A DNA stretch of 64,000 bases from assembly GCF_932294415.1 (NCBI RefSeq), contig NC_065535.1, positions 14,155,282 to 14,219,281 of the forward strand. The letters run 5' to 3'. A program made the translations under genes and the position numbers. This stretch comes from Quercus robur (Eukaryota > Streptophyta > Magnoliopsida > Fagales > Fagaceae). The notes under the pieces were generated by a model. That model saw only the letters and a list, made by a program, of their open reading frames with translations. It did not search any database and was not told the origin of the DNA. Positions 16,705-37,642 of the stretch are shown here, one piece after another (the first letter of the stretch is position 1; the number at the start of each line of letters is the position of its first letter).

Positions 16705-18009
16705 TTTTCACGGTGGCCGGAGAAAGCAAAGTTGAAAAGTCTGAGAGAGTGAGAGACAGTGAGATAAATTAATGAATTGTTAATAAAGAAACATGATTTC
16801 CAAGATAAGATAGTAATTAAGGTACAGTGGAAGTCACATACATATGTTAAGGCCAAGAAAAAAAAATGTATGACCTAAGCAAAAATAAAAAAATTAAAGA
16901 AGAGGTTTGGACGCGTGGGAGGTAACGGTTACACAAGCTTGGCTTTTTCTGCAATTTTTGAAAAGAATGACCAATTACTGTACGAAGTCCTAGTGTTTAT
17001 TTAATTTTTTCACAGGGCTATAGTTCATAATTACACGCTTTAGCTAACACTCTTTCTCGTGCCAATCGAAGCCGACTGACATTTCTGCAACTGTATGAAC
17101 TGTTATACACATAACATTACTCTCTCTTTCACTTTCTCTGTCTCTCCAAACGTTGACATGCACTTGGGTTTCTTCTTCTGTTGATGTCTGAAACGTATCT
17201 TTAGAGTACATTTGGTATTAGATATCTGAAGAGACTTTAAAGGGTGGGTTGTTATAGAGTACACTCGAGTGTATTACTGAGTATATAAAGGTACGGAAGG
17301 TTATCTCATATAGTCATATCTGTATCTTAAGCTTCCGCTTGGGTGAAAGGCTCTGTTTGGACGCTACTTAGTGAGTTCTTTGGTTTCTCTTTTATCTGGT
17401 TTGTTTGGGTGGATCATGTTTTTATCCAACAAAACATGTTTTAGCCTCCCGTATATAAGCGTCACTGGGTGGCTTCAGATCTCTGACACAGACAATGTTT
17501 TTGTTTATATTTTCTGCATGTATACTTTTTGCTGACTTGGGAAATTCACATGTATGATGTATGTACTTTGTAAATCTGAAAGGGATTGCAAATTTTATAC
17601 CACAAAATTAATAAATTTAAAAAAAAAATTAAGTAGAAAGAAGAAGATACAATAAAACTAGCCACACATTTAATTAATTAATGTGTTAAATTGTGATTCA
17701 TGCAAGATAAAAATAGTACCAATGGTATAATCATGTGAAGAGAAATTACTTTTATCATAAGTTGACAAGTCAACACATGTAAAATTGAATGTTATAGCCA
17801 TCAGGTTGTTTTAAACTGGGTGTGGAATTATAGCCTGAATTACGATACAATTAAAAGAGAATCTAAAACCAATGGTTATTCTTGTTGACCATATTTGGTC
17901 TTTGTTAGATCAACTCAATGCATTATAATTGTATTTGACTTATTTCTTTTTGTCACCTGTAAAAAAGTTTATTAATAATTATAATAGACTTAAATTAATG
18001 ATGTCTATT
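16705..18009. other. Upstream region of the ARID-HMG gene
   Basis: It holds the presumed 5' untranslated region and promoter of the minus-strand gene, including a GA-rich leader directly before the ATG, then AT-rich DNA. No other gene is seen up to the LINE. Confidence 0.5.
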
Positions 18010-21000
18010 CCATGGGTCGACTACTCAACGGAAGAGGAAAAATTTCATAAAGGGTTTAAATGATGATAATGGTGTTTGGCACAAGGATGAGGAGTTCTTT
18101 TCGGGTTTGTTAAATGACTATTACTCTCGGCTATTTTCATCCTCAAATCCTCATGATTTTGATCGTATTTTGGATGGGGTTGATGAAGTAGTGACTGATG
18201 AAATGAGGGCAGATCTGGCCCGTCCTTACACAACTGAGGAAGTGAATGCAGCTATCAAGGAAATGGCACCATTAAAGGTCCTTGGCCCAGATGGGATGTG
18301 GCCATTATTTTATCAAACCTACTGGACTGATGTTGGAACAGATGTTCATCAAGCTGTCTTGTCAAGTTTAAACTCAGGTCCTATCTTGAAATCAATAAAT
18401 CACACTTTCATCACTTTGATCCCTAAAGTGAATAGCTCGGAAAAAGTTTATGATTTTTGTCCTATTAGTCTTTGCAATGTGATTTATAAGATTGTGAGTA
18501 AGGTGATTGCAAACCGTCTTAAACCTTTGCTTAATTCTATTATTTTAGAAACTCAGAGTGCTTTTACTACTAATAGATTGATTACAGATAACATCTTAAT
18601 AGCTTTTGAACCTTTGCATCACATGAAGACTAATTGTACAGGGAAGAAGGGCTTTATAGCACTTAAGTTGGATATGAGTAAGGTTTGTGATAGAGTGGAG
18701 TGGATTTTCCTTGAAAAAATCCTTTTGAAGTTAGGTTTTCAAGCTTCTTGGGTGGCTTTGATTATGGAGTGTATAACCACTGTTTCTTATTTCATTCTAG
18801 TAAATGGAGAGCCGAAGGGTATGATTTCCCCCTCTAGGGGTTTGAGGCAGGGCAATCCCCTGTCGCCTTATTTATTTTTGTTTTGTGCAGAATTCTATTT
18901 TTAGAAAAGCAACAATGAAGGGTGACATAGAGGGATTTTCTGTGTGTAGGAATGGGCCAAAAGTTACTCACCTATTTTTTGCAGATGATTGTCTTTTATT
19001 TTGCAGATCCACCTTGGAGGAATGTCAGAAATTTCAGGAGCTATTGGCCTATTATGAGGTGGCGTCAGGCCAAATGATAAATAAGGAGAAAACCACTCTA
19101 TTCTTTAGCAAGAACACTGATGAACAAACATAGGAAGCTATTAAAGTTTCTCTTAATGTACTAGCAATACAAAATATGAGAAAAATTTGGGCCTTCCTTT
19201 GTTTATTCGTAGAGAGAAGAAAGCTTGCTTCACTAATGTGAAAGAGCGGATCTGGGCAATAATGCAAGGGTGGAAAGAGAAGCTTCTGTCACAAGCTGGT
19301 AAGGAAGTTATGATAAAGGCAGTCATCCAATCAATTCCTACTTACTCGATGAGTGTATTTAAATTGCCGGTTAGTTTGTGTAAGGAAATAGAAACAATGA
19401 TTCAACAATTTGGTGGGGACAAGGTGACTCAAAAAAGATTCATTGGGTTAAATGAAGTTCTTTGTGCTCATCAAAATCTGTTGGAGGGATGGGTTTTCAA
19501 GATATTCAAAACTTCAATAATGCCTTACTAACCAAACAGGTGTGGAGATTAATTCCCCAGAAAGATACGCTTCACTATAAGGTTTTTTGTGCGAAGTTTT
19601 TTCCCAATGGGAGTATTATTGATGCCCCTATTCATCCAAAGTGCTCTTATACATGAAGGAGTATATTGCAAGCACGCAAGCACAGGAGGTTATAGAGAAC
19701 GATGCTATCTGGCGGGTCGGGAGTGGTCAGATGATTGATGTGTGGAAACATAGATGGCTCCCTAATCCTAGTTACAACAAGATTGTATCTCCAAGAGCAA
19801 ATTCCACTGTTAATTGAGTTAGTGAATTGTTCTACTCCAATACAAGAATCTGGGATCCTGGCAAATTGGAGAGCAATTTTTACCCTTAGGAAGCTGATAT
19901 GGTGTGCAAGATTCAGGTGAGTGAGGCGTGTAATGAGGATTTGCTGGTATGGCCTCTGATTGCGGATGGAAATTATAGTGTTAGGAGTGCGTATCACTTG
20001 TTAGCTTCAACAGAGGCAAGCATTGCACCGAGCTCTTCCACACCAATAGACCAGTGGTGCTTATGGAAGAGTATTTGGAAGATTCGGACTCCTAATAAAA
20101 TCAAACATTTCCTTTGGCGTGCAGTCAAAGATTCACTTCCAATGAAACATGTAAGGTTGAATTTATTCAACCATCTAATTGGCTTTATTCCGTGCCAAAT
20201 TTGCTTGTAATTCAGCATTTAGTAACCCTGTATTTAGGTGGGATTGTTGTAAGGGTAGTGAGTGAGATAGTGTGAAGATTGCTCAAGAGTGTGCAAGAAA
20301 ACAGAGTGTCGCGGCTGGGACTCGCGGCTGGACTCGCGGCTTCAACCCGCCAGAAGATGCACACGTGCCAAGCATGCTGGAAGATGAACAGTCATGCTAG
20401 CTGGAGCACTACAGGACAAAACAGGACAACTGGCCATACGGTTAACTCGCGACTGGAACTCGCGACTTAGTCAAGCCGCGAGGTCAAGCCGCGAGCCACC
20501 CCTGTTTTGGAAAAACCTGACGTTTCGCATTCCACTCCTCTTCAGTATAAATACCCTTTTAACCCACGATTGAAAGAGAGCTTCCAGAGAGAATTTTGAG
20601 AGAGAAACCCTAAAGAAAAACAAGATTGTTTCACACACAATCCCTACCTTAGAGTCTCATCAAAATCCCTCACTCTCTTCCTCTCCATTGTAAAAACCTT
20701 GAGAGGCATTATACCAAACCTGGTTCTCACCATTATCATCTCTGTGAGACAGTCGTTTGGAGTTCTGGGAAGCAGTTAGGAAGGAGCCAATCTTCATTGG
20801 TTGATGCTACGGTGTAGTAGCGGAATCCGGAAAGCTAGAAAAGAAAAAGGTTCGGCGCAACCTCGTTGGAGCAAGAAGCTTGGAGGGCTTAGGTGCACTG
20901 GGTAGATTAGGCTTGGAGGGTCTATTGCTGTCCTTGTATCCCAACTGTATTTTCTAGTGGATTGATTACCGCTTGGAGGGCGGCGGAGAGGTTTTTCGCC

Positions 21001-22128
21001 GAGGTCTTCGGTTTCCTCTTCGATAACACATCGGGTGTTATCTTTGTGTTTGCATCTTCCTTCCTCTCTATCTTTGCCTTTATTTTATCTGCTGTGGTTT
21101 CTTTTTGTTATGGCTTAGATAGTTGTTTAACCAATTTCATATTATAGCATGTGTTAAGTTTCCGCACACTAGTTGTTTGACATATTGCTTGAGTTGGTTA
21201 AGTTGTTTTTGGGGGTCTAAACGTTCAAAGGTGTTTTTGTACACGTTTTTGAACTTTCAAAACAAATCTAAGAGCTCGACATATTCCAATAGATGAGACA
21301 TGTGATTTGTGTGATGATCATCAAGAAACTCTGCTACATAGCCTCTGGTTGTGCGATCATGCACATTTTGTTTGGAAGTCAGACCCAGGTTTTGCTCCTC
21401 TGTATCAGAAACAATATAGGGAGTTTGAGGATTTGGTGGAGGAGGTGATGCACAGGGGCTCAGCTTATCGGGTTGCACTTTTCTCACCATAGCTTAGTGC
21501 TTGTGGCAGCACCGGAACAGGCTTAGAGAGAACCAACTAACTTGGCAGCTTCATGAACTGGGGGAATCGTGCTAAGGATCTAGTCTTGGAGTATCTCAAT
21601 GTGAAGAAACAGTCTACTCGGGCTGTAACTCGACCTGCTGGGGTTCGCTAGACTCCTCCAGCGGAGCAGAATTATAAGGGTAACTTTAATGCTACATTTT
21701 TAATGCTTTGGGTTGTGCAAGTATTGGAGTTGTCTTTCACGATCACATTGGAAATATTATCGCTACTTTGAGTCAAAAGATCCCATTGGTTCAGTCCATG
21801 GAATTGGCGGAGGCTTTGGCGGCGAGACGTGCAGTAGTGTTTGCCAAGGAGTTGAGCTTGTTCAATGTGGAAATAAAGGGAGACTGCTCAGGGGTGATCA
21901 AAGCCTTGACTGATCCAAGAAGATGCAGCACTTTGTTTGGTCATGTGATAGATGAGAGTCAAAGTTTAGGCGCTACTCTTCAATATTGCAAGTTCTAGCA
22001 TGTTCAAAGGGAAGGAAATAGATTAGCTCACGCCTTAGCTGGAAGAGCAGCTTTTAGTTTACGCCACGAAGAAAAATAAATACATGTCTAAAATTGAAGT
22101 TCTCGTGATTTCAGCAATTAAAAAAAAA
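18010..22128 (+). pseudogene. Dead L1-type LINE (RT, zinc-finger and RNase H-like parts), interrupted by an LTR
   Basis: This is a 5'-truncated plant non-LTR retrotransposon. The RT domain runs from about 18107 (NDYYSRLFSS, then FITLIPKV and LRQGNPLSPYLF). The first catalytic region reads LDMSKVCDRVEW, where AYDRVEW is usual. A frameshift near 18890 leads to HLFFADDCLLF with the catalytic DD at about 18985. More frameshifts occur near 19140 and 19500. The zf-RVT region (about 19930-20205, RTPNKIKHFLWRAV) is split by the insertion at 20206-21264 and resumes at about 21275 (ETCDLCDDHQETLLHSLW). An RNase H-like end follows (GVVFHDHIGNIIAT at about 21730; ELAEALAARRAV) with a stop at 21996. A short A tail sits at about 22118-22128. 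No endonuclease part remains. Confidence 0.88.
20206..21264 (+). mobile_element. Copia-like (solo) LTR inserted in the LINE
   Basis: It interrupts the LINE zinc-finger region, whose coding sequence stops at 20205 and resumes after 21264. It starts TGTAATTCAG and ends CAAAACA. It has a TATA-like tataaatacc at about 20547 and a conserved-looking region (gcttggagggtct; ggcggagaggtttttcgccg) of a kind I associate with plant Copia LTRs. No internal retrotransposon domains are present, so it is a solo LTR or LTR fragment. A clean 5-bp target duplication is not visible (aaatt against aatct or aaatc, depending on offset). Confidence 0.7.
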
Positions 22129-22489
22129 GATTGACATATCAATGGAATATGACGTATCTATAATAACTAATAACATTGTTTTTTTTTTTTTTTTTTAACT
22201 CAATATTGTATGTTGTTTTATCTAACCTTGTCTTTGAAAAAATAACATTGTATGTTGGATCAGGCGTTTTGCTTTGCTCCATCTGTGCGTCTGTGTTTTT
22301 TTAGTAGGTCTCGTAGATACTGTTCATGGATCCCTAAAAGTCAACAAAATACAGATTTCTAGGTAAATTTAGGTCCCACAACACTATTCACATTTTTAAA
22401 AATTATTTTGCTACAATGCTTTTAGCAATAAATTTTTAGTTTTCAGCAAATAAGTGGTATCCAAACACACCCTAACTAGTCATTAAGTA
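22129..22489. other. Intergenic DNA with a MITE end
   Basis: Poly-T near 22180, then sequence ending ggtatccaaacacacccta that matches the termini of the GTTTGG-ended MITE at 56148. The left limit could not be set. Confidence 0.45.
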
Positions 22490-23345
22490 GGCCAAAATTG
22501 GAAATTAATACTGTTTGCCAAACAATATAATTAGTAGACATTGTTTTCAAACTATATTTTTTTACTAACATCTCAAGTTTAAAAGACTCGATTTAGGGCC
22601 TATAAATCAAGTCTCAAATACTCGGTTTCCATGGTCTGATAACTTCTGATGTGGCATTTTTTCCACGTGGTGAGTACCTGGAAATCAACTCGATTTATAA
22701 GCCCACCCTTTAACCCTACATATTCAACCTCCTTACACTACAAACCATTCACCCCACCCCACCTTCTCATCAAGCCAAAAGCCAAAGAATCCACAGCTAC
22801 CCGATCCAGCCAGACCACACCACCACCGCACCGTCGCACCAGACCCACACCGCACGACCCAGGCATCAACCCAGCGAGGTGAGGTGAGCTCTCTCTCCTC
22901 AGATTCTTTCTCTCTCTGATCTGATTTGGGTTTTCAAGTTCAGTTTTTAGTCAAAATAGAAAAACCCAGAAAAATTGTTTCATTGTTGAATAAATAGCGA
23001 ATGTGTTTCATTGTGCTGGGATTGTTGTATTTTTGGGATTTCTTAATTTTTTTTTTTTTTTTTTTTTTTTGGTATTTCTGGGAATGACTTGTACATGGGA
23101 GACTTAAGACCTAAAAATTTTTTGGCTTATAAATCGAGTCTTCGAGACTCGATTTCCAGGTGGACGCCACGTGGAAAAAACGCCACATCAAACGTGATCA
23201 GGCCATGGAAACCGAGTTTTTGAGACTCGATTTATAGGCTAAAATCGAGTCTTTAAGACCCGAGATGTTAGTAAAATATATACTTTTGAGACTGTGCTTA
23301 CTAACTATATAGTTGGGAAAATAGGCTTTATTCCCAATTTTGGCC
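22490..23345. mobile_element. Mutator-like element with 10-bp target duplication, possible Pack-MULE
   Basis: Terminal inverted repeats of about 190 bp (starting ggccaaaattgg) match in inverse with about 80-85% identity. They include gtttccatgg, gatgtggc and ttttttccacgtgg. The flanks are tcattaagta at both 22480-22489 and 23346-23355. The interior (about 22690-23100) is unlike the arms: C-rich leader-like sequence, a short open frame with HRRTRPTPH, a donor-like gaggtgaggtgagc at about 22877, and a T-rich intron-like stretch. That fits capture of a gene's 5' end, but the donor gene is unknown. Confidence 0.8.
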
Positions 23346-23355
23346 TCATTAAGTA

Positions 23356-23854: not shown

Positions 23855-25104
23855 TGTGAGAGTGTCTTTTTCGGGATACTCAGGCCCAAGGATCCCAAGC
23901 CTGAATGAAAAGGAAAGGATTTGGTGGACCGGGCCTTGACTCACCGCAGCTAACAAGCTGTTTAAGAATCAAGTGAATGCAGAGAATACTCCTGACAACA
24001 TACAGAAAAAATGACAAACAAGGATATCGAAGAGTGCCAAAAATTAACAACGTAAGTTCAGGAAGAAAAAAAAAAGGATTAGCAAGACGATAAAAAAAGA
24101 GTGCTGTGGGGATCCTGGGAATTATGAAACAGTATTTCATTAAGACATTATCTGTTTGATTACAGAAAGTTCACTAGGACGTGATACAAGGTCCAATCAA
24201 GCTCAAAAATTGTAGCCTTGAATGGCTATTTCGGCCTTCAAAACTTGCGAAGTTTGATTCTCGTTGAATCCGAGTATGTGCCATAGTGGCCTTTACAGGA
24301 TATCGGGAAGCAGTATTCGTTTTCCCTTAGTATTTTCTTTCTGTATAGATTTTCTGATAGTTTTTCCTAGAGAATCTCTTCTTTCTTGTGTTTCTTTCTT
24401 TTTTTCTCGCTGCCTTCTTCACAACCCATCCCCTCCTTTTATAGTGGAGTTTTCTGGGCGTCCCAGGGAACCGTTGGTTCCCCTGTTTTGTTCTTTTGCA
24501 AACAGAGCATGCTCTGTCTCCATCGCCTCAGTAAGTCCCTTTTCCGTTTTCTCTCATTCTTTCCTTCTCTTGGTTCTGATTCCTTCGAAAGCTTTTGGTT
24601 GGCCATCCTCTTTGGGACGTGCTGAGGTATGCCCTTCTCGGCATCCCCATTTCTGGCGTCTTCCTCTTTTCCCTTTCTTTCCTTTTTGGGCGGAATCCTG
24701 TTCTGCCATTTTTGAAAGTCATTTGTTACCATTCTTCTTCCCTATCCTGGTTCCCCGAGGTCCTTTTCTGTCTGTGCCATTGAGAGGTCGTTCGCGTCTT
24801 TTATTTCTTGTTTTTCTTCTTCTGTCTTCTTTCTATCGATTTGTCCCAATCTTCCTTTTTATTTGTGCTTGAAGGGATCTGCGCTTATTGAGGATCCTTG
24901 CTTCTTTAAACTCTGCCGTGGTTTCTTTTTTGGACGCTTCTTCCTTTTCTGGGCTCCAGGATCCTCTGGGCCTTCCTTTTATTCCCCCATGAGTCATCCG
25001 TATCTATTGCTTTGGGCTTAGCCTGAATTTTTTCTTTTGGGCTTAACTTGTTCTTCTGTTTTGGGCTTATTTTATTATGGCCCTTTCTTTTTCAGACCTC
25101 AACA
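23855..25104 (-). repeat. 3' LTR (left copy) of the 13.8-kb element
   Basis: Plus-strand ends are TGTGAGAGTG and CCTCAACA. It aligns over its full length with 36393-37642 without visible indels. Confidence 0.95.
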
Positions 25105-25115
25105 TTTAGCCCCCC
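25105..25115 (-). other. Polypurine tract
   Basis: The minus strand reads ggggggctaaa directly before the 3' LTR start, the expected primer for plus-strand DNA synthesis. Confidence 0.75.
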
Positions 25116-25623
25116 GAGCTCGTGGGTTGCCTGAAACCCACGCGTGAGTGATTTAGGTTTCTTAAGATTTTCGTGGTATCCCCCTTTTTTTCAACTTCTA
25201 CTGGGTTCCCTTCCTCTTTACTTGGGATCCCGGCTCTTTTCTGCTGCTTTTAGTCACCTCCTTTTTGCGTGTTGTATTCCCTTACTTTTTTTGCAGCTTC
25301 CTCTTTATACGGGACGTGGCAGTTGGGTATTTGAGGTAAAACTCCTCTACCCACTTTTCTCGTTTCCCGTTATTTCTCATTAATAACTGCTGATTAATCC
25401 CTACTTCAAATTAAATTTCTTGGCAACTGGCGCGTCTTTCCATAAACTGTTTTCCCCAACTGCTATTTGCGCCTTTATTGTAGCCGTTTCATCTTATCAC
25501 TTTGCTTCTCTGAGTTTTTCACTCTTTGTGTTTCTCTTTCTTTTTCTCTTATTCTCTGTTACTCTGGTCTTCCTCCCTTTCGCACTTTCAATCTCTTTTC
25601 TTCTCATAGTGTGTGTTGTTTCC

Positions 25624-28600
25624 ATGGCTTCTTCTTCTTCTCGAAAGAGGAGAGAGCGTACTCCTAGTCCTTCTGAGGGTGAAGGTTCTTCTGGTTCTGC
25701 TCCGAGCGATTCTCACGAGGTTGCTGAACGTCCGGCCTTCCCTTTACGGGATCCTTGGTATTCTCTCAGTTTATTTTTTCCTCATATATCTCATGGTGAG
25801 GCTTCTCCATCCCCTCACGTTTGGCTATTTTCTGGCCAAGCGGGTTTCGCTGGTTCCGCCCAGGTTCCTGACCCTAGAGAGATTTTCGATCTCCAGATCA
25901 GACAAGGAATCCGAGAGGCGGTTCCTATTTTCTTTGATTTTGTTCCGGGAAAGATTCAGGGTTGGCCCATATGGGTAGACAAGGAACTATCTGATGCTGA
26001 GTTTGTGAGTCGTTTGGAGCGCGCCGGCATCCTAAAGGCAGTGGCTATTTCCAGAAACCTCGAGGGTTTCAGAGACGCCAAAGGGCTCAGGCATCTGGTA
26101 CGTCGTTGGTGTCCTTCCCTTCATACTTTTTTCTTTTCTACTGGTGAATTGACGATCACCTTGGAGGATGTGGTTAATAACTTCCTCCTCCCGGTGTTTG
26201 GTGAAGAGAATCCCTTTGATATTAACCTTTCTGGTGAGAATCTCGTGGTAGAAGAGAAATTATTTGGTCATTTTGGTGGTCGCTCCGCCTCTCCTGGTGG
26301 TAAGCCGGCTAGGATGGGGAGATGGGTGATGACCCTCTCTCGTGAAAAGGATAAGGAAGTGAGGTGGGCCGGTTTCCTGGCCTTTTGGCTTAGTAAGTTT
26401 TTGTTTAGTGAGTTCCCTGGGTACGGAGTTAAGTCTTCGTTTTTTCCGTTGGCAATCAAGTTGGCTCGAGGTACCCAGTATCCTTTGGCCCCTCTGTTTT
26501 TGGGTCATGTTTATTCTCAACTGGACCAGCTTCATGGAGATGAGGCTGAGGGTGATTCTTGTTATGTGATCACTTCATCTCTTCATTGTGCCATTCTTCA
26601 GATTTTCATGTGGGACCGTTCTGCAGCTACTTTGGCTAAGTGCAGGAATTTGAAATTTGTGAACGACAAGTTCCAAGGATCCCCCGACATAGTGAAGGGT
26701 CTTTGTGGCAATTCTACTGATGCCTTTCCCATTATTTTTCGTTGGATTAGCTTGAAAGGTGGTGGCCTCAATCTTGTGGAGTTGTTTGACCAAGCAGGGA
26801 GCTTATATTAGAGATCCCCTCGTGAGTTTGGTCCTGGCTTTGCATGTGATTCTGTGTTGTCTTCTTTTTTATCTTCTACAGGTAATACCTTTGACTTGCG
26901 CCGTGGTGATGAGGGCAGTCTGGCTTATCTTGCCTGCATTAGCCCCTCCTGGCTTCCTGTGCCTTCTTCAAGTGGCCCAAAATATACTCATTATTCAGCA
27001 CACCGGGTGCTCCGACAGTTTGGTTTTGATCAGGACATTCCGCCAGTTTTTAAGGATGTGGTGCCATCCCTTCCTTCCATGGATCCTTTCTTGAGGCTGC
27101 AGGCCTTTTCTTATTGGTCACGGAGGAGCCCCCAATTTGTAGTGCCTAACTCCCAGAGAGGAGTCTTTGCTTCTAATGGCTATACCAGTTATTGGAGAAG
27201 AGTACAAAAATCTTTTGTTGACTATGTTGGCACTGGTACAGTTCGGGAAGTCCCGAATTCTAGCATTGTTTCTGCTCCAACAGCCAATAGACGTTTATCC
27301 CTTCCTACTGCTGGGATTGTTTCTGCTGCTGCAAGCAGCAAGACTGGGTTTGCAGAGTGGCATGCCTCCAGGGGAGGTTAGGTGGCTTATGGACAGGATT
27401 TTCCTGAGACCTGGCTGGGTGATAGTCTCATCATTGGTGCTTCCTCTGGGGTGCCCATCAAAAAGGGTGCAACAGAGACAATAAGTGCTGCCACTGCTCC
27501 GAGTAGAGGTAAGGATGTCAAGTCGAAGAAAATGAAAGCTGCTGATGTTGGTGAAAGTACAGGGGGTGTGGAGATAGGCTCTGAGGCGAAAAGAAGGACA
27601 ACGGGGAAATCTCAAGTACACTTGGCATCTTAGGAAGGCAAGGATGTCAGGGAACCTTTAGTTTCAAGGACCTGGAAGAAGACCAAGGTAGAGTCTTCTT
27701 TTCCCCAGGTTCCTGTGACTGCTTCAGTCCATGGTTCTTTAGGATCCTCTGGTTTGGTATCCCAGCCTCCTTTAGGACCCTCTGGGCGTACTCGTAGTAA
27801 GCAAAAGACTTCCAGAGAATCTGTAGGGAGAGAGAGAAGGGCAAGACTTCTTTCCTTCTTCTCTCTTTTTTTTTTTTTTACCTGTTCACCTTGTTGCACT
27901 CATTTCTATTTTGCTGACGAGTGGTGATTTCCTTTGCAGTCCAAGCGCAAGTCTGATCACAAGAAGGGTAAGAGCCAATCTTCTGGAGACGACGTGGTAC
28001 GTATGTTCACCCTTCTTTTGTTCTTTCCCTTTTGTTCTGACATTGTGTTGTTAGCATTTCCTGCTGTTGCGTTTTTTCTTTTTTTTTTTTTACTTGGTAT
28101 TGCCTTCTCCGCTGCTTCTTCCTTTAGGTGGAGGTATCCCCTCCTATGACTGACAAGGTTCTGGGGGAGGAAACTATCACAGCTCTTTCTGTCGTTTTTC
28201 CTGTTATGGGGGAGGAGCCCCCTACTGATGATCCCGCTGAGGAAACCAGGCAACCGATGCAAGGTTCCCAGGATTCTCAGGATCCCAAAGCTTCTAGAAT
28301 CCCATCATCTCAAAGTCCCCATCTTGAACGCACTCCTAGTCCTATCAGGACTGTGTTTCCTCAATCCTTGTCAGATAAAGGTGCTTTGGGAGACACTCCT
28401 CTATCCAAACAAACAGGTAAACCTTGTTTCCTTGAAATAGCGTTATATTTTTTACTTTCTTTTCCAGTTTTTCTTGAATTCCTCCTTTTCCTTTTCCTTT
28501 AGGTCAAACCAATGAGAAATCTGCTCCCAGTGTTGCCTCTTCTTTAGAATCAGAGAGCTCAAAAGGTGAGTGCAAGCTGCTCCCATCGTGTTTCCTTTTT

Positions 28601-29575
28601 CTCCCCCCCCCCCCTTTTTTTTTATATGGCGAAGCCCCCTGCATCTATCCCTTCCTTTAGCCACTTTGCCATTGGTCCTTCACCTTTTCTTCAACTTGCT
28701 TTATGTTCCTTCCCAGAATCTTCGGGGAAGTCAGGAGATCAGGAAGAAGAGGTTCTGCCCCAAGAAACTGGAACCGGTTTGTTCTTCTTTTCCTCTCTTT
28801 AAAAAAACTAAATCTGTTCTTCCTTTTCTTTTTCTTCTTTCTTTTTTTTTTGAATACTGATACAAGTTTTGCAGGTTCTGAGCCTGTTATCCCTGAAGGA
28901 ATTGTGAGACCTGTTGAAGTTGCTGACCTTCATCCAGAGCAAAAGGCTGCAAGTCCTCCTGTCTCTGCAAGTGGTGACACGGCGATGGGGGATGCCTCGA
29001 AGATGGCTGCCTCAGATCTTGATTCAAGGCTTTCCTCTTTCCTGGCTCGCTTTGATCTTTTGGAATTCAACAGTTTTCCTGCCAGCCACTTTCATGTTTT
29101 TGGGTCTTCTTATGGCAGCTTCCTGCGCTTCTCTGTTCCTGTGGAAGGCCTGCCGCTGCTAGAGAGCCTGCTCAAGAGTCACGGGGATTTTACCAGCGGC
29201 TTCAGGGGAGGCGTTTTTCTAGGCAATATTTTGATGGAGTTGCTATGTGCTGTGTTGATTTCCCTAAGGAATTCCTCTGTAGATTCCTTGTCTGAAGAAA
29301 AGCTTCTGGAGTGGAGAGGGGTGGTGCAAGACCTTCTAGAGGCCAAGTTTAATTTGTCTTTTCTGCTGGATCACTTGCGTCTGCTGGCTCATATGCTGTT
29401 TCAAAGGCAATCATTCAAGAGTATAGACACTGAGATAGCTGTTGCTGAGGAAGTTTTGGCTCATGCTCACAAAGTTTTACAAGACTTGAAAGTCAAGCGG
29501 CAGAGGATCCTTTCTACTTTGGCTGTTCCTGTTATCTCTCCGGATGCCTCTCTGTTGGCCGGCCTCATTCCTTAG
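25624..29575 (+). pseudogene. Antisense seven-exon plant-mobile-domain gene inside the retrotransposon
   Basis: The plus strand, opposite to gag-pol, carries an ATG at 25624 (MASSSSRKRRERTPSPSEGE) after a pyrimidine-rich leader. Exon 1 (to about 26819) encodes a plant mobile domain (PMD, MAIN/PP7L-like): DAKGLRHLVRRWCPSLHTFF, then LTITLEDVVNNFLLPVFGEE, and a MGRWV/WAGFLAFWLS region. Likely further exons start after AG at about 26881 (NTFDLRRGDEGSLAYL), 27940, 28128, 28502, 28717 and 28875, with GT donors between. The last exon ends at a TAG at 29573-29575 and encodes a helical C-terminus (VAEEVLAHAHKVLQDLKVKR). Stops in frame at 26809, 27379 and 27631 break it. Function unknown; PMD genes occur in both transposons and host silencing factors. 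Exon borders are inferred. Confidence 0.75.
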
Positions 29576-30383
29576 CTTTTTTTTTCAGATTTTCATGAAC
29601 AATTTGGGGTTGTATAAGTTTTTTTTTTTGAACATTGCTCTGCTCTTTGCTTTCTCTTTTGTGTTTCAAAACTGCTTCTTATTTCTTAGTATGTGAATCT
29701 GCCTTTTTCCTTGGATATATATATTGTCTTTACTTTCTTGTGACTCTTTTCATTCCTGAGTCCTGGACCATGGTTTCCACAGGCTTCACTGTAAGTTCTG
29801 GTCCAGATACCTGGTAATTTATTGTGCAAGTACTGAACTGGGTACACTGGTATCCTTCTCTATGTATGTTTTTTTTTTTTGAGATACGGTCCCAGTTCAT
29901 GAACTTTGACAGGTTCCCCTTTTGCCAAGTGCTAGGCTAGGTATCCTAGATATTTTACTTTTATTCTGTGATCCTAGACCTATGCACTTGGGACTGTTTG
30001 TGGGATATCTGAAATTATTTGTGAGGTGGATCCTGGACCATATGTAAAAGGGTATTACATATTCTCCCCTTTTTTTTTTGACTCAGGTATCCTTCCTTAA
30101 ATTTATCCACATTTGGTCTTTGCAGTATTTAAAGAAAAACTTAAATGTTGAAGAAACAGGAATTTCATTAAAACATGGTCATTTTTTTTTTTAAGGAACA
30201 AAGAAAAAATCTTTTGGTGCAGCATTGACCACAAAGTGTCAATCTATCACATGTTCCTGAACAAAATTATCTTAGACCAGAATTCTTGATAAAGGCTGAA
30301 AAATAAAAAGACAAAAATAAAAAGAACTTAACAGATAATGAAGCTGGTGAAAGGACCCTGAGGTACTGGGGATCCCCTTGTCT
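29576..30383. other. Non-coding spacer between the antisense gene and pol 3' end
   Basis: It lies between the converging ends of the plus-strand antisense gene and the minus-strand integrase. It is T-rich with several poly-T runs (29619, 29870, 30070, 30183). Phrases such as tcctggacca and ggtatcctt recur. No ORF is credible. Confidence 0.6.
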
Positions 30384-31801
30384 TTATGCATAGTATTGCT
30401 TCAGCCATTTCCCGTTTATGGGCTCTGTCAGGACTGTTCCATCTTCTTTGGCAAGGTAATAATATCCACTTTCATGAGCTGCATTGATGATGTAGGGTCC
30501 TTCCCATTTTGGGGTGAACTTGGAAGGCCCTGGCAGGTTCCTCCTCACGTGCTCCGCCATCCTTAGCACTAATTGCCCTTTGGTGAACACTCTTGGGCGT
30601 ACTGCTTGTGCATATGCTCTGGTCATTCTTTGCTGGTATCTTTGGCTCCTTTTCTTGGCCAGTTCTCTTTCTTTTTCTACTCCTTCCAGATCTACTAGCC
30701 TCTTTTCATTGCTTGCGTCCTCACTTTCTCCCTGATTTTCCTCGAGAACTACCCTTGGTGTAGGAATGATTAACTCCACAGGGCTGATGGCTTCTGTTCC
30801 ATAAACCAGGGAGAATGGGGAGAATCCTGTGGCTGTCTTTACAGAGCTCCTACATGCCCAAAGCACATCTACCAGATGGTCACTCCATTTTCCTCCATAC
30901 TCATGCTTCATTTTCTTAAGGATTTTTAATATTACCCTATTAGTAGCTTCAGCTTGGCCGTTTCCTTGTGGGTAGTATGGGGTAGATCTTCCATGCTTGA
31001 TGTGGTATGCTTCAGTTAATCCCTTCACATCTTTGTTTATGAATGGGGTTCCATTGTCGCTGATCAATCTTCTGGGGATCCCGAACCTTGTAATGATATG
31101 GTCTCGAATGAAATTTGCTACAGCTGCTCCAGTAGCTTTTTTCAAAGGGATGGCCTCTACCCATTTTGTAAAGTACTCCGTGGCTGCCAGGATCCATATA
31201 TAACCATTGGATAGAGGATTTATGGGCCCTTGAGATCGAGTCCCCAAGTATGAAAAGGCCATGGCGTCGTCATATCCTGTAGGACATTTGGGTGAGTGTG
31301 AATTGCATCTCCTAGGACTTGGCAAGCATGACATGTTTTGACCAGCTCCTCAGAGTCTCTTTTCATCGTTGGCCAGTAATACCCCAACAACAGTAACTGC
31401 TTGTACAGCCTTCTCTTCCCTGGGTGACTTCCGCAATCTCCAGAGTGCACCTCTCTGACTACTTCTCTAACTTCCTTTGGTCCCAGGCACCTGAGGGGAT
31501 CCCTATGGTATCCTTTTTTGAACAAAATGTCGTTCTGCAAGAAATACCTGCACGCTAGTTTTTTGAGCTTGTGGGCCAGTTCCTTGTCGGTTGGCAGGAT
31601 CCCCCGAGCCAGGTATCCTATGAAAGGAACCCGCCAATCTTCTGCAATAAACACCGCGTAGCATTCTTCTTTATCGATTGCCAAACGACATTCCTTGCAT
31701 TTCCCCTGTATGATTGCTGCTTCCTTGTCCATATCTGGCCAGTAATACCCCATGCGTTGCATCCTTCTGTATAGGCTGACTTTTTCTGCAACTCCACATG
31801 C
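30384..31801 (-). CDS. Integrase region of the 13.8-kb element (frameshifted)
   Basis: Read from the in-frame TAA at 31804 down to a stop at 30384. It contains an HHCC-type zinc-binding region (SGDCGSHPGKRRLYKQ, then TCHACQV) and the DDE core: D in GLDLKGP (about 31230), D in ISDNGTPF (about 31060) and E in YYPQGNGQAEAT (about 30960). The C-terminal part WEGPYIINAA is followed by the final KWLKQYYA. A one-base shift near 31225, just after the first catalytic Asp, separates the two open pieces (31762-31220 and 31334-30384). An earlier repeat-like YYWPDMDKEA segment at about 31745 resembles YYWPTMKRDS at about 31380. Confidence 0.9.
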
Positions 31802-33979
31802 TTAGGCGTGTAATTCTTCTAGTTTCAACTTTCCTTCCTTCTCGGTGATACATCTGGACAGTATTCTTCCTGGCAGTCTTCTATACAATTCTCCTTCTAT
31901 CTGAGTGTAATCCATTAGTTCTTTGATGTTCCCTCTAGGGCTCGCCTCTTTCATCCTTTCTTTGACTTCGTCCCTCCAGTCCCACTGTTTGGATTCCCCG
32001 GGGTACATCCCTTGGAGGATCCTTACAATAGAATGTTCCTGCCTTCCTATTTTTATCAGCGTATCCCTCCCATTAAATGGTATTTGGGATCCCAGGGTGG
32101 CGAGAGCATCTGCAAACCTGTTTTCACTTCTTTGAGTGTATTCTATGCTGAAGGTTTGAAATTCCAACTCCAGCCTTTGTGCCCAAGTCCTGTAGGCTGC
32201 TAAGCTTTGTTCCCGTAATGCAAAGTCACCTTTCACTTGGGAGACTACAAGATTAGAATCTCCCAGCACTCTCATATGTTTCACTCCTATACTGAGTGCT
32301 ATAGTCAACCTAGTTAAGTATGCCTCATACTCAGCTGCATTATTAGAGCATGAGAAACCAAGCTTGAAAGACAGGGGCATGATATCCCCATTTTCACAGC
32401 TTAGTACAATTCCTACCCCATTTGAAGTTGCTGTAGCTGACCCGTCAAACCTCATGGTCCATTTCTTCCCTGGGATCTCCATCACTGCTACCTCACCAGG
32501 GATTTCTTCGCTCAGTGGGCCTTCTTCCTTTCCTGGGAATTGAGCTAGCAAATCTGCTATGGCCTGGTTCTTGACAGCCTTGGGAGTTCTTATACCTATA
32601 TCATATTGTGAGAGCAACACTAGCCATTGTGCTATTCTTCCCGTGAGAAGGGGCTGGTGCAGGAGTGCTTTTATGGGGTGGGACTTGGTTACCAAGAGGA
32701 TTTGGTGAGCTGAGAAGTACCTCTTCAACCTTTGGGATGCATAAACGATTACTAGGCAGGCTTTCTCTATTCTGGGGTACCTGGTCTCGGTATCCTTGAG
32801 TGTTCTGCTTACATAATATATGGGCTGCTCATTTCCTTGGTCATCTTCTTGTGCCAGTAAAGCTCCTATTGCCTGAGAGTTTGATGCTAAGTATAGCAAC
32901 AGAGGTCGCCCACGTACTGGTGCCTGGAGGGTGGGCAGATGGTTCATAATGCCCTGAATTCTTTGAAAAGCTTCCTGCTGCTCTGTTCCCCAGGTAAATT
33001 CATTTCCCTTTTTCAATAGTTTGGATAGGCCTGCTGTAGCTGAGGCTAAACCAGGCACAAACCTCCTGATATAGGAGACCCTTCCCAGGAAGCTTTTGAG
33101 TTCCCTAACAGTAGTTGGTCTTCTCATCGTGGCAATAGCTGTGGCCTTGGCTGGGTCCACGCTTATGCCTTTGTGATGTACCAGGAAAACAAGGAACTTT
33201 CCAGCAGACACTCCAAAGGCGCACTTCATGGGGTTCATACGTAACTTGTATTTCCTGCATCTTTCAAAGACTTGCTCAAGTACTTGGAAATGTCATGTTC
33301 TGGTTTTTGACTTGACCACAATATCGTCTACATAATCTTCCATCTCCTCATGCATCATGTCATGGAAAATGGCTATCATGGTCCGTTGATACGTAGCCCC
33401 CGCATTTTTGAGGCCAAAGGGCATTACAGTGTAGTAAAAGTTCCCAATCGGAGTTCTGAATGCCGTCTTCTCTGCATCTTTGGCTGCCATGCGGATTTGG
33501 TTGTATCCACTGTACCCATCCATAAACGAGAACATTGAGTTTCCTGCAGCTGAATCTACAAGGAGGTCGATATTGGGCAAGGGGAACTCATCTTTAGGAC
33601 ATGCCTTGTTCAGGTTGCGAAAGTCTACACAGCAGCGGATTTGACCATTTTTCTTCTTCACAGGTACAATGTTGGAAAGCCATTTTGGGTGTTGGATGGG
33701 TTTGATAAAACCAGCTGTTAGTAATTTCTTGACCTCTTGGACTATTTGAGCTTCTACCTCAGTGTGGAAGACCCTAGCTGGTTGGACTACTGGCCTCATC
33801 CCCGGGTCCACATTAAGAGAATGGACTACCAACTTCGGGTCTAGACCAGGCATCTCATCATAGGTCCATGCAAACACATCTCTGTATTTTTGAAGTAAAG
33901 TTACCAGTTGTTCTCTTTCTTGAGCCACCAATTGACTGCTAATGAAAACAGGTTTTCGGGATCCTGGTTCTGTTCCCAA
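31802..33979 (-). CDS. Reverse transcriptase and RNase H of the 13.8-kb element (stop-interrupted)
   Basis: RT copies the element RNA into DNA; RNase H removes the template. RT begins after the linker and shows CCVDFRNLNKACPKDEFPLP, FMDGYSGYNQI, VMPFGLKNAGATYQRTM and the catalytic YVDD at 33334-33323. An in-frame TGA at 33295-33293 falls shortly after YVDD, and the same frame then continues as NPMKCAFGVSAGKFL. The RT connection (SFLGRVSYIRRFVPGLA) and an RNase H fold (RFDGSATATSNGVGIVL with the first Asp; NNAAEYEAYL; LGDSNLVVSQV) follow, and the frame ends at TAA 31804-31802. The domain order fits Tat-type pol with a second, archaeal-type RNase H, as the RFDGSA...NNAAEYEA signature suggests. 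Confidence 0.92.
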
Positions 33980-34165
33980 GTCTACTTCCTTTAGTTCTTC
34001 CTCAGGCTAAATCTGGGCCTCCTTAACTGGTTCTTTTGGGATTTCTTCTTGGGCCATCATGCAGCTTGGTGGTCCGGGACCTTCCTGCACAATGCATTCG
34101 GGTCCCGCGCACCTTCACAAACGATAAATTAGCCTTCCCCCAGGTTCCCGCACCACCACACATTC

Positions 34166-35371
34166 TCAGGATCCTGAAGAGCTGGGCTCCCTCTTTTGTC
34201 TTTTTCTTTCTAAAAGGTTTATCAGGTCACGAGTGCCCCTTCCTCCTTCTTCTTCTTCTAGGATAGGTGCCCCCGGGGTGGGGTTCTCATCATCTGGCTC
34301 CAACTCATCATAAAACATCGTTTCTGCAAAGTTCACTTCTCCCTGGCTGAAAGGATTATGATTGGCAGGGATCCTTATGGGCCTCCCATTCAGTCTCCCT
34401 TTAATGCATTGATGGAATGTGGATGGAATAAGGCGATGTTTATGAAGCCACGGGCGTCCCAGCAACACGTGATAAGAAACTTCTGCATTGATCACATGAA
34501 ACCTTGTCAAAGCTACTATTGGCCCTACCCTTAAGGCTAGTTGCACGTATCCTTCTGTTGATTCCACCGATCCTCCAAATCCTGTTATTTCCATGGGGGC
34601 CCCCAGGATCCTTCTGTCAACTAAGCCAACAGCTTCCAGGGTACTTAAGGCAATGAGGTTGAGTGATGCCCCCGTATCCACCAGTGCTCTTCTGACTTGA
34701 ACACCGTTTATGGTGGCCATGAGATAAAGGGGTCTACGGTGGTCTGGGTGCTCAATCTCCATGTCTTCATCAGTGAAGGTTATTGCATTGGTTGTTTCTA
34801 GGAAAGCTCGACTAGCATGTGACTCAGCTGTAAAGCATTCCATCCCTGAATCTGCTGCTATGCTCATGAGAGACTCTGTGGCCACCCTTCTTGCTTCTGG
34901 TCCGAATCCTAATTGATTGAATAGTGACCTGAACTTAGGATTCTTCTGGAGGGTTCTGACTGTGCTCGGGTGGAAGGATCCTTCAGATTCTCCTGCTTCT
35001 GCCGGGTTCCCATGTATTACTACTGCTACCACCCCTTTTCCTTTGTGGTTAGGCAAGGGGTTCCTCTGCACTTCTGGCTCCTTCTGAGTGAGTTCTAAGG
35101 TTCCTTCTCTCAACTTTTTGTGGAAGAGCCTGCAAAGGGTCCAGCAGTCCTTAGTGGAGTGCTTCACATAATTATGGATTCTGCAAAATAAAGGATTCTT
35201 CCTTTCTTCTTCGGTTGGTGGCCTGGACACAGTGAATGGCCTGACAACCCCATCTCCAATCCATTTGTCTAGGACATGGCTTAACTCTTCAGCTGTGCAT
35301 GGGATCACCGGTGGTTCCTCAAACACCTTCCCATCTGGTCTCTTCCTTTTCTCTCCTGCTGATGCTGTCAT
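34166..35371 (-). CDS. Gag C-terminus and aspartic protease of the 13.8-kb element
   Basis: A 401-residue open segment, in frame with gag upstream (after TAA 35377-35375) and RT downstream. It has a cysteine/histidine stretch CRIHNYVKHSTKDC (about residues 62-75), a zinc-knuckle-like nucleic-acid-binding motif. The retroviral-type aspartic protease follows (about 230-330), with active site ALVDTGASLNLI and the second conserved region SYHVLLGRPWLH. The protease cuts the polyprotein. The open segment ends at TGA 34168-34166. Two more in-frame stops (34117-34115 and 34009-34007) lie before RT. Confidence 0.9.
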   Translation of the reverse strand: MTASAGEKRKRPDGKVFEEPPVIPCTAEELSHVLDKWIGDGVVRPFTVSRPPTEEERKNPLFCRIHNYVKHSTKDCWTLCRLFHKKLREGTLELTQKEPEVQRNPLPNHKGKGVVAVVIHGNPAEAGESEGSFHPSTVRTLQKNPKFRSLFNQLGFGPEARRVATESLMSIAADSGMECFTAESHASRAFLETTNAITFTDEDMEIEHPDHRRPLYLMATINGVQVRRALVDTGASLNLIALSTLEAVGLVDRRILGAPMEITGFGGSVESTEGYVQLALRVGPIVALTRFHVINAEVSYHVLLGRPWLHKHRLIPSTFHQCIKGRLNGRPIRIPANHNPFSQGEVNFAETMFYDELEPDDENPTPGAPILEEEEGGRGTRDLINLLERKRQKREPSSSGS

Positions 35372-35374
35372 AGC

Positions 35375-36331
35375 TTAGGACGCGGACAGCCTTTTTGTTC
35401 TCATGGTTTGCGCCGTCCTTCTGGTTCTCTGTAGCAGGTCAGCAAACTGTGTGATACATAAATTTTCAAGGTTGAGTCTGTAATCAAAAAGCATGTTGGC
35501 TATACAGGTTTCCACGAGCTCCTTTTCTTCATGGTCTCCATAGCAGTCTAGGGACACATCTTCGAATCTTTTAATAAATTGAATTGGATCTTCTCCAGGT
35601 CTCTGCCTCACCATTTGCAGGTTCTGGAAAGTGATTTTGTCTTCACCAGGGTAATATTTGGCGCAGAATTTTTCCATCATCTCATCCCAGGTCTTGATGG
35701 ACCCGGGTCTCAGCGTGGTGTACCAAGTGTATGCCCTATCCACTAAGGATTTGGCAAATTCCCTTAGACATAATTCTTTGTCTCCTGCATAGGGGCCCAT
35801 AGTGTGGACAAACCTGCTCACATGTTCCACGGCACTTCCATTCCTCCCATCGAAAGGATGGAACTTTGGGGGTTCGTATCCCTTAGGATATGGTTTGCCA
35901 AGAAGTTCTGGAGGGAACGGGGGATCCCGAGAGAATTGCTTGGGGATCCCTGAGAGTTTTTCCCTTTCTTGCTCCAGGAGGGCATTGACGTCTGCCAGTG
36001 TCAAGTATTGAGGGTTGGCTCTTCCTCCCACTACTGACCCTCCTTCCGGCTGTGTCCCATCTTGGTGGCCAGTAGGGGGAATATTGTCTCTGATTTCCTG
36101 TGTCCTGCCTTCTTTGAGAAGACGAACTTCTTGCTCCAGATCCTTTAACATTGTTGTCATCCTGGCCATTAGGTCTGGTTCCTGCCTTGCGTGTCTTTGT
36201 TCTGACACAACCTCCTGTTCCACCAAGGGTATCCCACCTCCTTACCTGGAGACTTCCTCGTTTTCTCCTACAGGCTCAGAGGCCGTAGGTGGCACATTAG
36301 TTCCTTTGCTGTTTCTTTGTCTTGGAGGCAT
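35375..36331 (-). CDS. Gag of the 13.8-kb element (one internal stop)
   Basis: The likely start is ATG 36331 (MPPRQRNSKGTNVPP), about 40 bp downstream of the primer-binding site. An in-frame TAA at 36244-36242 interrupts it, after which the frame is open from 36241 to 35378. The capsid-like Retrotrans_gag domain (LREFAKSLVDRAYTWYTTLR, WDEMMEKFCAKYYPGED, LQMVRQRPGEDPIQFIKRFE) spans the second half. Gag builds the particle that packages element RNA. Without the upstream piece, a start at 36226 would give 283 residues. Confidence 0.9.
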
Positions 36332-36370
36332 TCTCTGTGAAGGGATTGTTTCTTCCTTCTTCTTTGCCCA

Positions 36371-36389
36371 GTCCCCAGTGGAGTCGCCA
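36371..36389 (-). other. Primer-binding site of the 13.8-kb element
   Basis: The minus strand reads tggcgactccactggggac, three bases inside the 5' LTR. It has the TGGCGACTC form common in Tat/Ogre elements. Confidence 0.8.
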
Positions 36390-36392
36390 AAA

Positions 36393-37642
36393 TGTGAGAG
36401 TGTCTTTTTCGGGATACTCAGGCCCAAGGATCCCGAGCCTGAATGAAAAGGAAAGGATTTGGCGGACCGGGCCTTGACTCACCGCAGCTAACAAGCTGTT
36501 TAAGAATCAAGTGAATGCAGAGAATACTCCTGACAACATACAGAAAAAATGACAAACAAGGATATCGAAAAGTGCCAAAAATTAACAACGTAAGTTCAGG
36601 AAGAAAAAAAAAAGGATTAGCAAGACGATAAAAAAAGAGTGCTGTGGGGATCCTGGGAATTATGAAACAGTATTTCATTAAGACATTATCTGTTTGATTA
36701 CAGAAAGCTCACTAGGACGTGATACAAGGTCCAATCAAGCTCAAAAATTGCAGCCTTGAATGACTATTTCAGCCTTCAAAACTTGCGAAGTTTGATTCTC
36801 GTTGAATCCGAGTATGTGCCATAGTGGCCTTTACAGGATATCGGGAAGCAGTATTCGTTTTCCCTTAGTATTTTCTTTCTGCATAGATTTTCTGATAGTT
36901 TTTCCTAGAGAATCTCTTTTTTCTTGTGTTTCTTTCTTTTTTTCTCGCTGCCTTCTTCACAACCCATCCCCTCCTTTTATAGTGGAGTTTTCTGGGCGTC
37001 CCGGGGAACCATTGGTTCCCCTGTTTTGTTCTTTTGCAAACAGAGCATGCTCTGTCTCCATCGCCTCAGTAAGTCCCTTTTCCGTTTTCTCTCATTCTTT
37101 CCTTCTCTTGGTTCTGATTCCTTCGAAAGCTTTTGGTTGGCCATCCTCTTTGGGACGTGCTGAGGTATGCCCTTCTCGGCATCCCCATTTCTGGCGTCTT
37201 CCTCTTTTCCCTTTCTTTCCTTTTTGGGCGAAATCCTGTTCTGTCATTTTTGAAAGTCATTTGTTATCATTCTTCTTCCCTGTCCTGGTTCCCCGAGGTC
37301 CTTTTCTGTCTGTGCCATTGAGAGGTCGCTCGCGTCTTTTATTTCTTGTTTTTCTTCTTCTGTCTTCTTTCTATCGATTTGTCCCAATCTTCCTTTTTAT
37401 TTGTGCTTGAAGGGATCTGCGCTTATTGAGGATCCTTGCTTCTTTACACTCTGCCGTGGTTTCTTTTTTGGACACTTCTTCCTTTTCTGGGCTCCAGGAT
37501 CCTCTGGGCCTTCCTTTTATTCCCCCATGAGTCATCCGTATCTATTGCTTTGGGCTTAGCATGAATTTTTTCTTTTGGGCTTGACTTGTTCTTCTGTTTT
37601 GGGCTTATTTTATTATGGCCCTTTCTTTTTCAGACCTCAACA
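36393..37642 (-). repeat. 5' LTR (right copy) of the 13.8-kb element
   Basis: Full-length match to 23855-25104. On the minus strand it starts TGTTGAGGTC and ends CTCTCACA. Confidence 0.95.

Follow-up and report, generated by a model that had tools for sequence, protein, structure and literature searches.

The window, 64,000 nucleotides of Quercus robur DNA, contains a complete Ty3/gypsy element on its minus strand (23855-37642), and on the opposite strand of this element a gene that lies between pol and the 3' LTR and runs from an ATG at 25624 to a stop codon ending at 29575 (Table 1). The element ends in TG..CA and has AGTTT as its TSD, and its two LTRs of 1250 bp each are 98.4% identical, with no gaps and 20 differences, 18 of which are transitions. 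The primer binding site presumably resembles tRNA-Arg, and a primer binding site antisense to tRNA-Arg is a mark of Ogre elements. Searching the literature with its letters gave nothing useful among the matches listed.

The second RNase H domain (RVT_3) lies after RT_RNaseH and before Integrase_H2C2 and rve, which is the Tat order. The Tat lineage is recognized by a second RNase H, flanked in Ogre and Retand by RNase H and integrase (PMC6317226), and by both the domain and its placement the present element belongs to this lineage. Ogre elements furthermore have an intron sited between the protease and RT frames; the frame gap found here measures 159 bp (34165-34007), as compared to a published Ogre average of 274 (PMC6317226). 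The RT-integrase frame is broken by in-frame stops, and the end of integrase is in another frame, after one frame change. As such, the gag-pol of this insertion is broken, and the copy of the element has decayed.

Outside the element, about 500 bp from the 3' LTR, we observed a MITE-like inverted repeat of about 200 bp, the arms of which (22483-22686 and 23151-23352) are 81% identical. Pieces of a LINE-type element are present on the plus strand (18002-20210 and 21690-21998), with RVT_1, zf-RVT and RVT_3 in separate ORFs. The minus strand carries HMG-box matches (PF09011 and PF00505) at 14378-14932, which are therefore probably part of a host gene exon.

The plus-strand gene and pol are arranged tail-to-tail, with 808 bp between the stop codon and the end of the pol frame at 30384. 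A frame-keeping model joins six exons into 1122 codons, with three in-frame stops that are all located in exon 1. The 1122-residue product would consist of an N-terminal plant mobile domain (PMD), a basic tail, a mildly acidic linker (27 acidic vs 17 basic residues within 734-890), and a nearly all-helical C-terminal domain. Much of this agrees with the original prediction, which had named a minus-oriented Ty3/gypsy element, now confirmed by the two LTRs, the TSD and the minus-strand pol, as well as a plus-strand gene with the same limits, a PMD in its first exon, further exons that keep frame downstream of it, and an end just short of the 3' end of pol. The tail, predicted to be acidic and helical, is indeed helical in a model of the last domain, while its acidity is only mild.

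Table 1. Positions in the window of the plus-strand gene and of the parts of the Ty3/gypsy element that carries it.
Feature	Position	Strand	Basis
Exon 1: MASSSS start, PMD (PF10536), basic tail, all three stops	25624..27822 (or to 27840)	+	
Intron 1: GT at 27823, or GC-AG intron from 27841	27823..27939	+	equivalent intron in three groups of relatives
Exon 2	27940..27996	+	acceptor: Quercus suber model; donor: splice consensus and frame
Exon 3	28128..28416	+	start: Lithocarpus P0130; exon 3-4 junction: Lithocarpus P0202
Exon 4	28503..28565	+	Lithocarpus P0202
Exon 5	28717..28776	+	acceptor: splice consensus and frame only; donor side: Quercus robur P0100
Exon 6: helical domain, weakly PEARLI-4-like, stop codon	28875..29575	+	homologs, structure model, weak PF05278
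3' LTR (1250 bp)	23855..25104	-	LTR identity, TSD, TG..CA ends
Polypurine tract, sense GGGGGGCTAAA, adjoining the 3' LTR	25105..25115	-	read at expected place
RT, RNase H, second RNase H (RVT_3), integrase zinc-binding domain and core	30384..34006	-	ORFs, profile matches
Protease/RT frame gap, about 160 bp, positioned like the Ogre intron	34007..34165	-	ORFs
Protease part; gag frame resumed past one in-frame stop	34166..35374	-	ORFs and profile match
gag (PF03732)	35375..36241	-	profile match
Primer binding site, sense TGGCGACTCCACTGGGGACT	36370..36389	-	read at expected place
5' LTR	36393..37642	-	LTR identity, TSD, ends

Splice junctions among relatives of the gene

Out of 15 raw ORFs (jgi, ena), 14 belong to three groups of relatives and stop soon after one common place, and annotated Fagus proteins of the same three groups jump at that place to a sequence resembling exon 2. 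This jump is consistent with a phase-0 intron, the phase being deduced from the residues. Exon 1 in the window ends at a like place, after a GRTRSK motif that is common to two of the three groups. Further downstream, Quercus suber P0293 uses the acceptor of exon 2 from a different donor, and Lithocarpus P0130 joins exon 3 at its acceptor, also from another donor and with exon 2 skipped. The junction between exons 3 and 4 is present in Lithocarpus P0202, together with the end of exon 4 and with exon 5 skipped, and Quercus robur P0100 matches the junction between exons 5 and 6 exactly. Single junctions of the predicted structure are supported by gene models of Quercus, Lithocarpus and Fagus, and all six exons together occur in none of the models P0293, P0130, P0202 and P0100.

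Three splice sites are less certain, namely the intron 1 donor, the intron 4 acceptor and, for some relatives, the intron 5 acceptor. Use of the GC-AG donor at 27841 would lengthen exon 1 by six codons, and the residues between the GT at 27823 and this GC donor are kept in close relatives. The end of intron 4 is read as coding by five close relatives (P0099, P0100, P0130, P0165 and P0217), among them the gene models P0100, P0130 and P0217, and exon 5 may therefore start earlier. On the plus strand, an open stretch in the same frame begins with an ATG at 28626 and takes up this end of the intron (28626-28716), possibly as an alternative start or part of a longer exon 5. As for intron 5, the entry into exon 6 seems to lie a few codons before the acceptor of P0100 in both P0130 and P0202.

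Could the introns exist only in gene prediction, the locus being made up of two ORFs, one for the PMD and one for the C-terminal part, that are never spliced together? Raw ORFs in the databases run into introns or start within them, P0099 reading through the intron between exons 5 and 6, and gene models conflict at some junctions, all of which would fit two unspliced ORFs. However, models from Quercus, Lithocarpus and Fagus each back at least one junction of the same frame-keeping model, and we consider the absence of splicing improbable.

The C-terminal domain and protein-level constraint

Exon 6 has 317 homologs, and the best 120 of these 317 have identities of 66-95%. Identity is concentrated in the core of the exon-6 block (residues 56-181), with a mean of 87% vs 56% for the linker (residues 1-50), and the core is the more identical part in 50 out of 50 usable homologs among the best 120 of 317. 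Of the 97 homologs found with exon 1, 65 also cover 60% or more of residues 946-1075, the core of the C-terminal domain, and related proteins have the same two-domain layout. As judged from protein data alone, the gene shows protein-level constraint. A structure model of the exon-6 block has a pLDDT above 80 over residues 51-210, and is composed of helices throughout, the last of which is long, apart from a single short hairpin. A comparison of this domain with solved structures gave no convincing relative. The match to PF05278 (PEARLI-4) reaches 26.6 bits, below the cut-off of 29.9; the same profile is found at an E of 0.001 or better in 25 of 46 aligned members, and the database lists it for some of the exon-6 homologs.

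The introns, in turn, had been expected to be free to vary, and this expectation is weakly borne out in two relatives, P0298 and P0302. In the comparison of intron 1, 2 of the 11 aligned relatives stay in frame all the way between exons 1 and 2. For P0298, 46/61 are identical in the exon-1 tail (3/64 unaligned), 13/31 in the intron (2/33 unaligned) and 14/19 in exon 2; for P0302, the corresponding values are 32/52 (12/64 unaligned), 13/20 (13/33 unaligned) and 15/19. Intron 1 aligns less fully than the exons in both, and in P0302 its aligned letters match at least as often as those of the exon-1 tail. This weakly suggests that intron 1 is looser than exon 2 in these two relatives.

The constraint also bears on whether the plus-strand transcript might act mainly as antisense RNA, a source, together with the genomic RNA, of double-stranded RNA or siRNA, its protein being secondary. 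Such a role has been suggested in general for antisense aORFs (PMC7264820), but constraint that follows the shape of a protein domain, together with exons that keep frame, points to a protein, and the odds for an RNA function appear to us rather poor.

The plant mobile domain and the in-frame stops of exon 1

The PMD profile PF10536 matches 25624-26808 with 95.7 bits vs a cut-off of 34.9, and the piece 26812-27378 on its own gives 24.8 bits. With the Pfam cut-off exceeded, exon 1 encodes a plant mobile domain, whereas Transposase_28, the other family for which a search of exon 1 had been proposed, is not found (PF04195 gave no match up to an E of 1 across the five antisense pieces scanned). 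The frame of exon 1 contains 3 stops, as opposed to 18 to 57 in each of the five other frames, and 1000 first-order Markov sequences of the exon contain 33 stops on average, with a minimum of 18; its openness exceeds chance.

For the homology search, the frame was read through with X at the stops, and scoring was limited to the 7993 candidates with the most words in common. A first search resulted in 97 proteins, with E down to 2e-131, of which 79 are named Fagus sylvatica, two Lithocarpus and one Hibiscus, while 15 come from jgi/ena. The named homologs point to the Fagaceae as the host family. Most of them cover much of 25660-27822 continuously, and some do so in two or three stretches. If a host PMD gene had recently been captured by this one element, as a passenger without a role, then introns and a host-like layout are indeed what one would find. 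Yet 93 of 95 exon-1 relatives are at least 59% identical, which suggests a repeat family, as do the many Fagus entries and the identities among the best exon-6 relatives mentioned above. Moreover, PMD-A clades are described as gypsy-only, A1 and A2 being gypsy-encoded (Ikeda et al. 2017, PMC5418596), and a PMD is carried by 57% of Ogre elements, in a study that sought ORFs of at least 250 codons (Neumann et al. 2019, PMC6317226). A recent capture is therefore something we regard as very unlikely.

An alignment with at least 5 codons on both sides of a stop was counted as crossing it. The first stop (26809-26811) is crossed by 93 of the 97 homologs, 12 of the 93 being gapped at the codon itself, and by 31 of the 93 proteins that were new in a second search (0 gapped). 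For the second stop, these counts are 78/97 (3 gaps) and 27/93 (0 gaps), and for the third 52/97 (11 gaps) and 17/93 (0 gaps). Since relatives align across all three stops, exon 1 is a single exon with three lesions, and with these stops the present copy of the gene is broken. Furthermore, 123 proteins span 26790-26910, and as 105 of them fill at least 80% of codons 26812-26881, this stretch is coding rather than intron. The seven exons of the original prediction are accordingly replaced by six, where the extra intron near the first stop is our reconstruction of a proposal that came without an exon table. That this copy is a working seven-exon gene is barely credible, because although a GT-AG path round one stop could be drawn, it would remove residues that most relatives possess, and two more in-frame stops would stay in exon 1.

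With a mutational spectrum that is even across sites, 0.62 new stops are expected since insertion, and at least three appear in 2.7% of runs. As only 0.62 are expected, the stops may partly predate the insertion, or reflect strong site-biased change. Among the 97 proteins of the first search, no close oak-type relative has exon 1 in one uninterrupted ORF. Long uninterrupted relatives of the exon are distant (the raw ORF P0001 is 34% identical), two Lithocarpus models at 71-73% identity are without some parts, and close fragments of up to 382 aa, at 80-87% identity, cross the first stop.

A probable accessory gene and its known counterparts

Taken together, we read this locus, with a probability of roughly 70%, as an accessory protein gene of an oak-family, Tat/Ogre-like Ty3/gypsy family, placed antisense between pol and the 3' LTR. 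What had been predicted as a host-type, intron-bearing antisense PMD gene holds insofar as its junctions are matched singly in relatives, and is corrected in that this copy has six exons and is broken. In maize Grande, gene23 is antisense, with a promoter upstream of the gene and a nuclear protein as its product (review PMC7264820), and by analogy the accessory gene probably forms a second transcription unit of the element, with its own plus-strand promoter, for which the original prediction had favored a site in or near the 3' LTR. Within 24900-25623, TATAWA and CCAAT are absent, and one ACGTGGC and two initiator-like words are present. The plus-strand transcript would be spliced like a host mRNA, and its introns would survive rounds of retrotransposition, as the original prediction had reasoned, soundly in our view, since the genomic RNA is made from the complementary strand and is without these splice signals. 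The product may be a nuclear protein acting in trans on the element or its silencing, a proposal that we make tentatively. Equally tentative, if the most attractive guess, is that the PMD protein interferes with or borrows PMD-dependent silencing; the original idea that it could counter silencing is speculative, and one like it exists for MULE-borne PMDs (Ikeda et al. 2017, PMC5418596). It is rather unlikely that the full scenario applies, in which oak-family Ogre-like elements would long have kept a complete, multi-intron, host-style antisense unit, its PMD and helical protein being under selection, its introns permitted by the antisense position, and its protein evading or tuning PMD-dependent silencing.

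PMDs in such elements are known, and a variant on this theme is an intron-bearing gene on the reverse strand that has relatives in related trees. A screen across 121 angiosperm genomes found no extra domain more often than the PMD (PMC9289625), and plant LTR elements are generally without introns, with Ogre and EVADE as sense-strand exceptions (PMC12786077). Conservation of the antisense intron-bearing gene would imply that plant LTR elements are able to bring along accessory genes that undergo splicing and belong to the element itself. Ikeda et al. 2017 (PMC5418596) leave open whether host PMD silencing proteins derive from gypsy or the reverse, and intron positions common to element and host PMD genes would inform this question. 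A 2020 review (PMC7264820) urges that antisense transcripts and spliced ones be looked for in elements of this kind. A multi-exon antisense PMD gene was not found among the literature matches listed, and Steinbauerova et al. 2011, which lies outside their coverage, may describe one.

How does the accessory gene compare to systems already described? It shares the antisense location between pol and the 3' LTR with Retand, where antisense TRP28 is present in 97% of clusters (Vicient 2025, PMC11963269); unlike TRP28 (Transposase_28) it encodes a PMD, and the word 'intron' has 0 occurrences in the main text of that article. The same placement is found for Grande gene23, for which the accessible part of PMC7264820 describes neither a PMD nor splicing. 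The host proteins MAIN and MAIL1 have the PMD in common with the gene in the window, but are encoded by PMD-C clade host genes that function in silencing, and are presented as consisting of a standalone PMD, with no C-terminal domain of this sort mentioned (Ikeda et al. 2017, PMC5418596; Nicolau et al. 2020, PMC7156037). Lastly, Ogre elements resemble the present one in having a second RNase H flanked by the RNase H and integrase domains, in the frame gap between GAG-PROT and RT, and in a PMD encoded by an extra ORF, while an antisense gene divided over multiple exons, as seen here, is not described for Ogre in the accessible part of PMC6317226.
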